Of a stretch of 22,072 nucleotides of DNA, positions 1 through 6,000 are shown in pieces. The DNA is taken from the IMG/VR virus record IMGVR_UViG_3300021959_000450, positions 1 to 22,072 of that record. One strand, given 5' to 3'. Position 1 is the first letter of the stretch. The number at the start of each line of letters is the position of its first letter. A model generated the notes under the pieces. That model made no database searches. It saw only the letters and a list, made by a program, of their open reading frames with translations, and was not told the origin of the DNA. A program made the translations under genes and the position numbers. The DNA comes from a virus.

Positions 1-74
1 TGTCTTGCAATATACGGATACGGTTGTTGAAACGTATAAGAAGATGGGTTTGCTGTCCAAATCTGTTGAGCCAT
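1..74 (-). CDS. Partial repeat-bearing fibre-like protein (N-terminus only, cut by left window edge)
   Basis: An ATG at 72-74 overlaps the TAA stop of the upstream 562-residue gene by one base (TAATG) and opens 24 codons that stay open to the window edge. The peptide starts MAQQIWTANPSSYTF and continues QQPYPYIAR. The last part is the same P-Y-I-A repeat style as the upstream gene, which contains TFQQPY near its own start and QQPYPYIANA further in. The DNA is also alike: the 14-mer gcaatatacggata occurs here and near 1536-1549. I infer a second, paralogous repeat-type virion or fibre protein that continues outside the window. The rest of its domain content, including whether it has a Hint domain, cannot be seen. 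The start is well supported by the coupled stop/start and by the repeat match. Confidence 0.72.
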   Translation of the reverse strand, partial: MAQQIWTANPSSYTFQQPYPYIAR

Positions 75-1762
75 TATTCAACTCCCCTATCAATTACTGA
101 GTCTACTAGATGACCGTTTGCATAGAAATTATTATACTTAGTTTGAACTGCAAAGTTTTTATGTGTTCCCTCATGTCTTTCAATAGAAACAATCTCTTCT
201 AAAGTTCCATCAAGTTTCATCATTTTATCACCAACAACTAACTGATCAACTTCTTGTTTGTAGTTCAAAAGTGTTGCTTCAGGATTTACTGAAGCCTTTC
301 TTCCACCTTCTAAGTAGACAGGGTGATCTTCTGTCATAATGAGATCATTAACTTTGTAGTCCACATCTCTGTCAACAATGATTATATCAGTTACTTCTGT
401 AAGTTCATCTTGACCAGTTTCGAAATTGTGAGACACAACTTTATCACCTATTTGTATATCGTATATACTCTTCATGTCATCTCCAGTTGCAATCAACATA
501 CTATCGTGAACACAACATAGTGGACATCCACCATCACTACCACCAGTATTAAATACAAGGACTTCATAATCAGTATCAATTGTTGTAAAAGTAAATTCAG
601 GATATCCTGTTTTTTGTAATTTTAGTGTGTGGTCATTTGAAACAAACACCGAGGGACTACCACCATATTGTTGAGAAACACTAGTTTGTAATTGATAACC
701 TGCTGTATATCCATTTGAAGTTGGCCATGTATATGTTTGTGTAGTCCCATTTATAGAATAGGTTGCATCAGGATTTGAACTAAAAGCTGTGGTATGGCTG
801 GAAGTTCCATTGAAGCCCTCTTCAGTAGTAGTGACATCATTTATCAGCTTATATGAATTAGGTGCAGAACCTATTGTAGCATAAAACATAGTGTAATATG
901 CTCCCCATGTAGTATACCAACTTGGGGCTGATCTATTAGTATAACCACCAGTAAGAAATTTTACCGAAACACCAAACGTTGTAGGAGTAGTAATGAACAA
1001 CTGAAGACGGGCAGTCAGATAAGTTGCACTAATTATAGTGCTCGTTGTTTTGTAAACCCACAATGAAGTTCCTGTTGATGTTTGATTAAAGGTGTTATTA
1101 ATTTCGGTTGTTGCACCTGGCTGTGTTCCTATAGCAGGTGCTGTTCCTGTAGCATTATAAGTGACCTGATAGGTAAAAGGAACTTGGTAACTCCCTGATG
1201 CGTTATATGTTGTTTGATATATAAATGGTTGTCTAGCGTTTGCTATGTATGGTTGCTGTGCATTTGCAATATATGGATTTTGACCGTTGGCAATATAGGG
1301 GACACGATAAGTAAAAGGTGATCGTGCCTGATAAGTAAATGGATTTCTTGCATTTGCAATGTAGGGTGTCTGAGCATTTGCAGGATATCGTGCCTGATAA
1401 GTAAAAGGTTGTCTTGCATTAGCAATATAAGGTTGCTGTGCATTTGCCTGATATGGATTTTGACCATTAACAGGTTGTCTGTTCTGATAAGTGAACGGTG
1501 TCTGACTATTAGCTATATAAGGTTGTTGAGCATTTGCAATATACGGATAAGGCTGTTGTGCATTAGCAATATATGGTTGTTGAGCAGCCGAAGGATTCCG
1601 ATAGGTAAACGGTGATCTGTTCTGATATGTGAAAGGGTTTTGTGCGTTTCTTGGTTGTCTTGCAGTTAACTGTGCATTGGCAGGAACCCTACCATTTGCA
1701 GGTTGACGAGCATTATAGGGTTGTTGAAACGTTGTCCCAGTATTTACGTATATATCTGTCAT
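74..1762 (-). CDS. Repeat-bearing tail fibre/adhesin-like protein with C-terminal Hint (hedgehog/intein) domain
   Basis: This 562-residue protein has three visible parts. Residues 12-206 hold about 26 short imperfect repeats of 6-8 residues, of the form [QR]-x-P-[YF]-[IT]-[AY]-[NQ]-[AN], such as QQPYIANA and RQPFTYQA. Residues about 213-412 are rich in Thr, Ser and aromatic residues with alternating beta-strand character, as in virion surface domains. Residues 417-562 are a Hint domain: Cys417 begins CVHDSMLIATGDD with IGDKVVS behind it (block A), TEDHPV lies at 477-482 (block B), and NNFYANGHLVDS lies near the end (block F/G). The final His-Asn of a splicing intein is replaced by Asp-Ser and only seven residues follow. 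The ATG lies 9 bases after the stop of the fibre gene upstream, with a weak GGGA-type ribosome site. Position beside the tail fibre suggests a fibre or adhesin. Self-cleavage or cross-linking is inference. Confidence 0.85.
   Translation of the reverse strand: MTDIYVNTGTTFQQPYNARQPANGRVPANAQLTARQPRNAQNPFTYQNRSPFTYRNPSAAQQPYIANAQQPYPYIANAQQPYIANSQTPFTYQNRQPVNGQNPYQANAQQPYIANARQPFTYQARYPANAQTPYIANARNPFTYQARSPFTYRVPYIANGQNPYIANAQQPYIANARQPFIYQTTYNASGSYQVPFTYQVTYNATGTAPAIGTQPGATTEINNTFNQTSTGTSLWVYKTTSTIISATYLTARLQLFITTPTTFGVSVKFLTGGYTNRSAPSWYTTWGAYYTMFYATIGSAPNSYKLINDVTTTEEGFNGTSSHTTAFSSNPDATYSINGTTQTYTWPTSNGYTAGYQLQTSVSQQYGGSPSVFVSNDHTLKLQKTGYPEFTFTTIDTDYEVLVFNTGGSDGGCPLCCVHDSMLIATGDDMKSIYDIQIGDKVVSHNFETGQDELTEVTDIIIVDRDVDYKVNDLIMTEDHPVYLEGGRKASVNPEATLLNYKQEVDQLVVGDKMMKLDGTLEEIVSIERHEGTHKNFAVQTKYNNFYANGHLVDSVIDRGVE
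77..514 (-). other. Hint (hedgehog/intein-type) autoprocessing domain inside the 562-residue protein
   Basis: Residues 417-562. The putative N-terminal nucleophile Cys417 is encoded at 512-514. It is followed by D-S-M-L-I and a GDKVVS turn, the usual block A pattern, and then by T477-x-x-H480, the block B pair that helps activate the scissile bond in hedgehog and intein proteins. The C-terminal block reads FYANGHLVDS where an intein would read roughly YANGILVHN. N-terminal thioester chemistry therefore looks possible, but C-terminal Asn cyclisation does not. This resembles Hog domains and type-B bacterial intein-like domains. No homing endonuclease is inserted. Confidence 0.8.
1145..1729 (-). 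repeat. Tandem short repeats encoding P-[YF]-I-A-N-A type units
   Basis: About 26 imperfect units of 18-24 bp within the 562-residue gene (residues 12-206). Two unit types mix irregularly: QQPYIANA-like (plus-strand words such as catttgcaatatatgg) and RQPFTYQA-like (plus-strand words such as cctgataagtaaaagg). The region has few charged residues other than Arg and is rich in Gln, Asn, Pro and Tyr. The repetition likely forms an extended shaft. At the DNA level it could support unequal recombination, including with the downstream paralogue at the left edge. Confidence 0.9.
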
Positions 1763-2860: not shown

Positions 2861-3065
2861 TTAGTTTCTCTACCATTGTTCTGAGAAGAAGTTTAATTTC
2901 TTGAACTTCACTCTTTAGTGTATTTATTTCGTTTACCTGTGATCGAAATATCTCTTTTCTCCTTTTTGCCATATAGTATGAGTTAATATCAGTATTAACG
3001 ATAGCAGTGGTCTCTTCATCTCTTATAAGATTTGAGTGTCCTTCTACTCTACTATACTCTGACAT
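2853..3065 (-). CDS. Small coiled-coil protein, probable fibre/baseplate accessory
   Basis: A 70-residue protein starting MSEYSRVEGHSN. The ATG at 3063-3065 lies one base after the TAG stop of the 2233-residue gene, so I prefer it to the upstream TTG at 3081-3083, which would overlap that gene. Residues about 33-70 (from AKRRKEIFRSQVNEINTLK onward) show Leu, Ile and Val at heptad-like spacing and should form a coiled coil. The N-terminal half is polar. The stop overlaps the start of the tail fibre gene by 8 bases (ATGGCTAA), giving tight coupling to the fibre. Short coiled-coil proteins between giant tail proteins and fibres may act as oligomerisation partners or chaperones. That role is inferred from position only and I do not recognise a named family. 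Confidence 0.68.
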   Translation of the reverse strand: MSEYSRVEGHSNLIRDEETTAIVNTDINSYYMAKRRKEIFRSQVNEINTLKSEVQEIKLLLRTMVEKLNG

Positions 3066-3066
3066 A

Positions 3067-6000
3067 CTATGTTGCAAGTGCAATACATCTAAGTGCAGAT
3101 ACGAGTGGCACTACTGAAGTATTACTTCCTTGTCCTATAACTTTGATTGCAAATGCACCAAATTCAGGTAGGTTATCAACTGTAAAGTCGTATTCTTTAA
3201 AGTTCCTTGCATCGGATACTAATGAAGTATCAGGTGAACCATTAGTGTTGAAATATTCCCATCCTGTATCATCGAAAGGAGTTGCTTCATCATTTCTCAA
3301 TACTTTATACATGAACTTAACATTCGTTGTAGGTGGGTTGAAGATATCAGCTGTGACTCTCAATGCAGTTGCAGGAGTTTTTAAGTTAACCTTTTTCGTT
3401 ACATAAACCATCTTGTTATTATCACCATCGGGTTCTGTAGATGCAACATAAACGGTTCCACTTGGAACGTCTGAAGATGAATTAATTTGATTCAATCTAT
3501 TTGCAATACCTAAACATCCAATAGTTGCAACATCTAATACAGGTGAGATATTACTGTTTTGTGTCTTCATCTGAACTCTACAATGGAATGATTTCTGTGA
3601 AGACATTTCATTGGTTTCATTAATAGGTGATGCAACAATACTTGGTGAACTAAAGAACACATTATCATTCAATGTGATCATCTCTCCAGCTGCTCTCATT
3701 TGATAAGCAGTTCCACCCCCTGTATATCCTTCAGGTGAATCCATTGCAGTTGTGTTTACTGCAACACTAATCATAGTGTTTTCCAACATAGTATTTGGAA
3801 TCATTGTGTGAATGGTATCAAAGTAGTAGTTTCTAGTTGATTTTGCATTTGCACCACCACTCAATGTTGACTCAACTGATGTATAACCTGAAATGAAATC
3901 GTATGATGACACATCGGGTGTTACACAGAATGAGTCAATAGTTATATTAGAGATAGATGTAAATGTCTGATTAATTGTATCAACTGGTATACCACCCAGT
4001 GTTTCTGCAACTGTATCAATTGCTATGGTTAGACTGTTTGTTGCACTACCAAAGTTTGTAACTGTTAGTGTGTCACTTGTTGTGTATGATAAGCCTGGAT
4101 TTGAAATCTTAGTTGATGTGATTGCACCTGAAGATACAATAATATCTACTGTGCAGTTTTGTCCATTACCACTTGTAGTGGTTGCAAGACCTGTGTATGT
4201 TCCATCAACGGGTAGACTTCCTGAGGCCAATGTTGCCCCACCTATATTCACAACACATCCTGTCATGTTTCCTGTTACACCACTAATAGTTACATTAGAA
4301 TTAGTGGTATACATACCGTGAGTATAACTGTAAATTTTTACATAATTCTGACCACTAAATGCTTCAACAGGATTATCCTGAAGATTTGCAATAGGTAGTG
4401 CAGCGTTATCAAATCTTAAATCTGCATATTTTGATACATCAAATTTTGCATGTTTTAAATTAAATTTAAGATCATCTGTCTGTTCTGCTGTCCATGTAGA
4501 TGCATTCTGAGATAAGAATAGTGAACCAGTTGCAGGTTGTTCTGCAATTGTTTGACCAGTGATAAGATCAGGTTCACCCATTCTAGAAATGAATGCTTCA
4601 TACTTGTTAGAGTTTGATAATACTACGAAACAAAATTCTCTACCTTGTTCTAAGTAGACAGGTGAGTCAAATGTAAATGTAGTTGCAACAGAACCATCAA
4701 CTGAAGTATTAACCTCTGAAGGATTTTTAACCACATCTGAGAAAGGTAGAATAATTTGGCCTGGATATCCATTAACCATATTTCTAATTTCTACTCTTAC
4801 TGGAAGTGATTCATCTTTAGTTGCAAAGTATACATCCACTGAAGTTAAGAATATACCACCTGATGCATCAACCAAGAATGATTGTGCAAGTGGGTCTACA
4901 TCTTGTTGAAATTCTCGTCTCCATATTGGAATTCTATCAAAATCTCTTTCAAACCATGGCACTTCAAAAAAGTCTTCTACTGTTGGAATGTTTACCGTAG
5001 GTATAGTCGGACTTGGCACTGGTTCAGGAGCTGTAACTGGTGAGGTTACAGGTGCTGGTTCAGGTGTTGGAGTAGACGGAACAGGCACAGGTGTAGTATC
5101 AACTGGAATCTGTGCAGCTGGTGGAATCTCAGGTGGAGATGGGTAAGGAGTTGCAGATGTATCAATTGCAGTTGAGTTTAGAATTTCTCCTCTACTTGAG
5201 AAGTCTCGTGCCTGTGATGTTGTTTCTGTTACAATCTTACCATTTCTAGTTGAGATAATTTCTGTTTGTGAAGATTGAAGAAGACCCTGTGCTTGATACT
5301 GAGTGTTTCCACTAGATGCAGGGTTAGTCAAGTTATAGAAACTTGATGTAATTCTTAAATCTCTTTGACCAGTTGGGAACCTCTGTGCAGAATTACTTGG
5401 AATATCAAAGTATGCACGAAGTCTACCGTTACCATTTGTTTTTACACCTGAAGATGCACCAGTTCCACCGTCTTGTGAGAAGGTAGAACTAAATGGTCTT
5501 ACATATTGATCAACTCTTATACCATCAAAGAATATAAAGTGATTAGTATTAGGTTTTAAGTTGGTTGCATCAATTTCAATTGTTCTTGCACGAATGAAAG
5601 GAACAACTGATACTGACACGATTCTATCGTTTCTTGTTTCTACAAAGTCTTCTACAACACTTGTTGTTACACCTGTTCTAGTTTGTGTTTCGGGTGTTTC
5701 GGTGATCTCTCTTGTCAACTGGAATCCAGCTTGCCATTCACCACCTTGTGCAGGGTCACCTGACCACTGACCGTTAGAGGTTGCAGTGACTTGACTAGAA
5801 ACTGTTCTAGGTTCACCAACCCATGTTGTCTGCCAGTTATTCCAAACTGTTCCAATACCATTTAAACCTGAAAGTGCATCAAAGTTTCCTTCTCTGTTCA
5901 CTCTTACTTCAGGTAGTTGCTCGGTATCCTGCCAAATATCTGTTGCAGGAGTTAGTTTGATATTACCGATAAATGCAAATACATTATATGGATTAACATT

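Follow-up and report, generated by a model that had tools for sequence, protein, structure and literature searches.

A putative self-processing Hint module at the C-terminus of phage tail proteins

The window, that is the whole stretch of 22,072 nucleotides analysed here, is a complete 22-kb virus record from IMG/VR (IMGVR_UViG_3300021959_000450) and represents the tail region of a marine T4-like phage, with genes of the gp25, Gp5, gp6, gp8-like and DUF4815 types. The closest cultured relatives of its baseplate wedge protein gp6 are found in the OM43 phage Melnitz (43%) and in the pelagiphages Mosig and HTVC008M. The window also encodes a wedge protein like gp8 and a DUF4815 protein of 2233 amino acids (aa). 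The DUF4815 gene is followed by genes of 76 and 362 aa and then by an open frame at 74-1762 on the minus strand, whose 562-aa product is a putative tail-fibre or tail-tip protein ending in a Hint domain. The label 'tail fibre' can reasonably be inferred from the position of the gene, after the gp25, gp6 and gp8-like baseplate genes and the DUF4815 structural gene. Its stop codon is overlapped by the ATG of the next gene, of which the window holds the start (1-74, minus strand) and which encodes a second repeat protein, without Hint and 258 aa long in the near-identical contig L002. Neighbouring pairs of genes with proline/aromatic repeats in steps of 8 and 6 aa (xxPYIANA and xxPFTYQA) occur in the window (1-1720, minus strand), in L002 (4753-7217) and in L004 (5176-7133); in each pair, Hint ends only the product of the first gene, and the two proteins are possibly two subunits of one fibre. 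Neither the repeats nor the Hint module are present in the stretch examined of the cultured relatives Melnitz and HTVC008M.

Starting from the N-terminus, the 562-aa protein consists of short proline/aromatic repeats, recognised from the sequence and its spacing in steps of 8 and 6 aa (QQPYIANA, RQPFTYQA; residues ~15-212, 1129-1720), a middle region that appears beta-rich from a reading of the open frames (residues ~215-409, 536-1120), and a C-terminal Hint domain of 146 aa (residues 417-562, 77-514), all on the minus strand. The end of the middle region seems, from the same reading, to resemble that of L005, L006 and L028 (...KKSGYPDWKAHTFKV versus ...QKTGYPEFTFTTI). The protein holds three cysteines only, which lie together in the motif C413-P-L-C416-C417 (512-526), where a CxxC stands immediately before the nucleophile. 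Cys417 (512-514), the first residue of the Hint domain and therefore Cys1, is the putative nucleophile of an N-S acyl shift, and block B reads T477-E-D-H480 (323-334). In place of the usual terminal His-Asn stands D554-S555 (98-103), and the protein ends in FYANGHLVDSVIDRGVE.

That residues 417-562 form a Hint domain is established by fold and by profile. An AlphaFold2 model of the 146-aa domain (pLDDT 93.5, pTM 0.87) has the horseshoe-like, all-beta Hint fold, and its top match in a Foldseek comparison with the PDB is BIL2 of Tetrahymena (6tmm/6y75; E ~1e-10, TM 0.83, 22% identity), with further matches to a BIL of C. thermocellum (2lwy, TM 0.70), to the gp41-1 and DnaB inteins, and to hedgehog (1at0, TM 0.68). 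Pfam matches of the window domain alone are sub-threshold (PT-HINT 2.9e-4, Intein_splicing 6e-3), and a PDB search with this single sequence matched nothing; a profile is required, and one built from 11 sequences matches BIL2 at 3e-7 and the NrdJ-1 intein at 3e-6. NCBIfam gave no match, and the sole match in PHROGs is phrog_21587 (2.7e-4), for the Hint part of a relative. The Pfam model AXH (ataxin-1/HBP1) matches 11 of 11 family members about as well as the Hint models do, with a best value of 4.4e-8 that stays below its cut-off, and ataxin-1 structures are reached at E ~0.02 by the A5 profile; a relationship between AXH and Hint is possible, as is an artefact of the models.

Relatives of the module number at least about 100 among the uncultured phages of IMG/VR, where the scans confirmed 79 loci, and 101 with a second alignment, in overlapping sets; these counts are not independent, because many loci are near-copies, and some of the 84 complete modules that were aligned are likewise near-identical. 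Cys1, Thr61, Asp63, His64 and Pro65 are present without exception in all 84, the apparent copies without Cys1 all being truncated by the end of a contig, and the residue before Cys1 (-1) is always F, L, C or I. The final two motif positions read HS in 68 modules, DS in 10, SS in 3, NS in 2 and SW in 1, so that Asn never occupies the last position (0/84), and in the clade of the window and a few others the penultimate His is missing too. The module always forms the extreme C-terminus of its protein, with 2-11 residues between the last motif and the stop codon. Outside the invariant residues much of it diverges to about 26-30% identity, and judged by the dN/dS of close pairs (0.05-0.11) it evolves under strong purifying selection. 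As 84 relatives keep the same five residues at such dN/dS values, the motif pattern is not a product of chance. The CxxC before Cys1 is found in all nine members of the window's clade (L025-L031, L005 and L006), on different carriers, and is missing from the other, larger clades.

A search of 84,980 bacterial and archaeal genomes yielded 201 pattern matches, none of which was confirmed, and neither the window protein nor any other query found a convincing homologue among 50,697 phage records (cultured phages). Two candidates were rejected: a match in LR756508, which is a portal gene with several inteins, and one in a Ruminococcus phage, which is a different Hint protein with another domain after it. 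In the former record (LR756508.1, 3831-7991; L101), the portal-like gene of a 484-kb phage carries several intein-like insertions, and there is one in the upstream gene too.

An earlier note on this DNA, made from the sequence alone, had pointed to Cys417, T477 and H480 in the stretch 77-514, and had read this end of a tail-fibre protein as a Hint domain that keeps its N-terminal chemistry and has lost the C-terminal cleavage residues. Its coordinates and residue numbering are exact, the Hint assignment is borne out by a predicted fold and a profile that both lead to known Hint domains, and all 84 complete copies retain Cys1 and TxxH; of the outcomes that would have refuted that note at the level of the sequence none occurred, since the fold is Hint and the homologues keep Cys1 and His. 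The word 'lost', however, needs qualifying: the terminal Asn is indeed missing, but it is absent from the whole family, in which 68 of 84 copies end the motif in HS. The CxxC before Cys1, the size of the family and the separability of the module go beyond the earlier note.

The proteins that carry the module include that of the window, with its short repeats, a beta-sandwich protein recognisable by the signature SLxDxSDGTxATINTxNxSxxRPDGxxPH, a protein with an AD45-gp19-like N-terminal module, and a lambda tail-I-like protein in L031 (PF06805, 0.007, below the cut-off). Foldseek on the carrier domain gave weak beta-sandwich matches only, which were set aside. In L031 the tail-I-like protein with its Hint module (2938-4236) is followed by a gene of 1372 aa at the position of J, and because of these two genes its source is probably a siphovirus. 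The module of L031, which shares 66% identity with that of the window, has the same C-x-x-C-C on another carrier, and the CxxC is therefore part of the module. In tail locus L173 (2501-2707) a relative of the carrier is cut down to its 68-aa N-terminal part, which suggests that this part alone is a docking module.

The gene order in the major clade is an S74-type fibre (S74 match 2e-19 for one example), a gene of about 80 aa, the Hint carrier, a 98-aa membrane and coiled-coil protein and a 127-aa thioredoxin-like protein. This last protein has a signal peptide, shows WNYAN or WNHQN instead of CxxC, and is conserved in L035 and in most loci of the major clade; its gene is the second or third after the Hint gene, adjoins that of the 98-aa protein, and is also found next to Hint-less carriers. 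A comparison of neighbours revealed no partner gene common to the window's clade and the major clade.

When the carrier part was used as the query instead of the Hint domain, relatives with and without Hint were retrieved, the Hint-less orthologues being those of the beta-sandwich carrier and not of the repeat-type carrier of the window. They are up to 81% identical to Hint-bearing carriers and syntenic with them, in the gene order given above for the major clade, and their available flanks contain no Hint motif. Of the 21, 17 stop at the Cys1 position or up to 3 residues past it, three stop 6-10 residues short of it, and one retains the N-terminal part only. Their last residues before the stop codon read ..ITGSITFQGGGFAP, ..ITFQGGGFAP, ..ITFESGGGFDP or ..ITGNITFGGFLP, and the corresponding residues directly before Cys1 in Hint-bearing carriers read ..ITGNITFPGIGGL, ..ITGNITFLSGGF or ..ITFLSGGF; the residues that follow the Hint domain are missing from the Hint-less alleles as well. 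The DNA of L150 (without Hint) and L039 (with Hint) shares 81% identity in the 288 bp that lead up to the junction and 88% in 506 bp that begin with the next gene; what separates the two stretches is the Hint segment alone. A carrier tree, made by a quick method, contains at least three changes of Hint state, with L150 as sister to the Hint-bearing L046 (support 95), and with L128 and L131 (without) in one clade with L058 and L133 (with; 100). At the level of genes, these comparisons show the Hint module to be a separable cassette. From the ends of the Hint-less carriers and the DNA of L150 and L039 it follows that the proposed product of cleavage would be essentially what the Hint-less alleles encode directly. 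Residue 199 closes the last strand in the model of the carrier, and the chain beyond it, a Gly-rich tail, is disordered, which would make this tail suitable as an accessible cut site.

With moderate confidence, and on evidence from sequence and prediction, I favour the reading that the Hint domain is a C-terminal auto-processing cassette, which would cut at Cys1 and release a mature tail-tip protein. In Hint domains, Cys1 together with the Thr and His of block B turns the preceding peptide bond into a thioester (PMC4031507). After translation, Cys417 would thus attack the bond before it in an N-S acyl shift, assisted by T477 and H480, and since a C-terminal Asn and a splicing partner are both lacking, water or a small nucleophile would then resolve the thioester; without this Asn, neither C-terminal cleavage by Asn cyclisation nor normal splicing is available. 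The reaction would free a Hint piece of 146 aa and leave a tail-tip protein of ~416 aa. I infer both this cleavage and a transient role of the domain in folding or assembly, comparable to that of S74, the chaperone domain that cleaves itself off the neighbouring fibre of the major clade. Release is favoured because the Hint-less alleles manage without attachment and because this neighbouring fibre has another removable C-terminal domain. The earlier note had likewise proposed that the fibre part could be released, a reading that gains strong support from the comparisons, in which Hint-less orthologues of related carriers end at the cut site. Against release, in my own reading of the alignment, the Asp at intein position F:4 is not conserved in the family, where Ala or Thr is found instead; residue -1 in the window is a Cys within the CxxC, and a disulfide there could block the reaction; the Hint-less orthologues belong to the beta-sandwich carrier and not to the repeat type of the window; and the Hint-less carriers, of which three stop short of the junction and one retains just its N-terminal part, could be merely shorter proteins that never needed processing.

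Alternatively, the Cys417 thioester may be captured by an amine or hydroxyl of a virion protein, a lipid or a host-surface molecule, by which the protein would become covalently attached through its new C-terminus. BIL2 of Tetrahymena, the nearest solved relative, forms an isopeptide bond between lysines and the ubiquitin-like domain upstream of it (PMC8616854), hedgehog transfers onto cholesterol (PMC7765530), and the tail that leads up to Cys1, rich in Gly (..GGF, ..GGL) and exposed, would be accessible. However, no acceptor is identifiable, no sterol-recognition region follows the Hint domain, the window's clade and the major clade share no partner gene, and as syntenic Hint-less alleles of the same carrier exist, attachment is not essential for that carrier. 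I consider such a transfer unlikely, and do not rate it lower because BIL2 does dispense its ubiquitin-like domain onto lysines (PMC8616854). Hedgehog/BIL2-like conjugation in its full form, in which a mobile cassette across T4-like and lambda-like tail proteins would attach the tail tip covalently to an acceptor on the virion or host surface, with a CxxC switch in one clade, deserves only limited credence. It is also rather improbable that the Hint fold stays on permanently as a structural or binding domain, with Cys1 and TxxH serving stability or binding. Presence or absence of a C-terminal add-on among close relatives is what an adhesin tip might show, and the C-terminal chemistry is missing from every copy; the residues invariant in 84 of 84, however, are precisely those of the first step of the reaction, while the rest of the module diverges, and the fusion point is the natural end of the Hint-less proteins.

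In the clade of the window, release could in addition be gated by redox state: a disulfide among C413, C416 and C417 would hold the precursor back under the oxidising conditions of seawater, and cleavage would set in during infection, once the disulfide is reduced on or inside the host. The CxxC is kept with the module in nine of nine members, on carriers that include the lambda tail-I-like protein, and by analogy with the MoaA intein of P. abyssi, where a disulfide between an N-extein Cys and Cys1 blocks the first step (PMC10663303), it suggests redox control in this clade. However, synthesis takes place in a reducing cytoplasm, where the domain should react already, and the larger clades have no CxxC, and I hold this gating to be doubtful; it is one form of release, and the confidences given to these readings overlap. 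A functionless fossil of an intein near the C-terminus of a tail gene would explain the missing Asn and the short remaining tail, inteins being common in phage genes, but such a degenerate intein is very improbable in view of the low dN/dS, the invariant N-terminal residues, the unrelated carriers with the module always at the extreme C-terminus, and the Hint-less alleles that lack the residues after Hint. An intein that still splices was rejected, as there is neither an Asn nor a C-extein.

Inteins, hedgehog, BIL domains and toxins are known to use Hint chemistry. The phage Hint domains mentioned in the literature searched occur as inteins, in genes for terminase, ribonucleotide reductase or others, and that literature, whose coverage was incomplete and in which absence is weak evidence, contained no account of Hint on phage tail proteins, of its position there, of its cleavage or of its behaviour as a cassette. 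Going by that literature, a removable Hint cassette at the C-terminus of phage tail proteins appears not to have been described. Cleavage would make it a second self-processing route for tail fibres besides S74, and transfer a mechanism of covalent attachment in virions. The natural pairs with and without Hint make both cleavage and transfer directly testable, and a compact, Asn-free C-terminal Hint domain would be a useful tool for making C-terminal thioesters.

Among known systems, BIL2 (Tetrahymena BUBL1; 6tmm, 6y75) is the best structural and profile match and has Cys1, the block B His and the N-terminal acyl shift in common with the phage module; however, BIL2 has Asn143 as its last residue and a ubiquitin-like domain on either side, whereas the phage module has no such Asn and nothing after it. 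The Hog-Hint domain of hedgehog is likewise C-terminal and non-splicing, with Cys1, TxxH and the same fold (1at0, TM 0.68), but the phage protein ends after Hint and lacks the sterol-recognition region of Hog. PT-HINT is an autoproteolytic Hint on long filamentous proteins (PMC3482391) and gives a weak Pfam match; it has a toxin domain C-terminal to it, the phage Hint none. Peptidase_S74, the endosialidase chaperone, is a self-cleaving C-terminal domain of phage tail fibres and is present on the neighbouring fibre gene of the major clade, but with another fold and Ser/Lys chemistry it is an analogy of role only. Some proteins of uncultured Caudovirales in UniProt named 'Hint domain containing', and a few matched Hint-fold entries named collagen or fibronectin III, place the Hint fold in phage proteins, under names that are automatic. 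Splicing inteins have a C-terminal Asn and a C-extein starting with C, S or T, in contrast to the phage module (Asn 0/84, stop after 2-11 aa), and the C-terminal His-Asn of type A BILs is replaced by HS, DS, SS, NS or SW. The phage module thus falls outside the inteins, the type A BILs, the complete hedgehog Hog domains and the PT-HINT toxins, as it lacks a defining feature of each. Type B BILs keep the N-terminal splicing motifs, lack the C-terminal Asn motif and are expected to cleave N-terminally (PMC4031507, PMC7765530), as proposed here; they are flanked on both sides and cleave also C-terminally by an atypical reaction, whereas 2-11 residues follow the phage module. By the logic of its motifs, it most resembles a type B BIL without the C-terminal flank.
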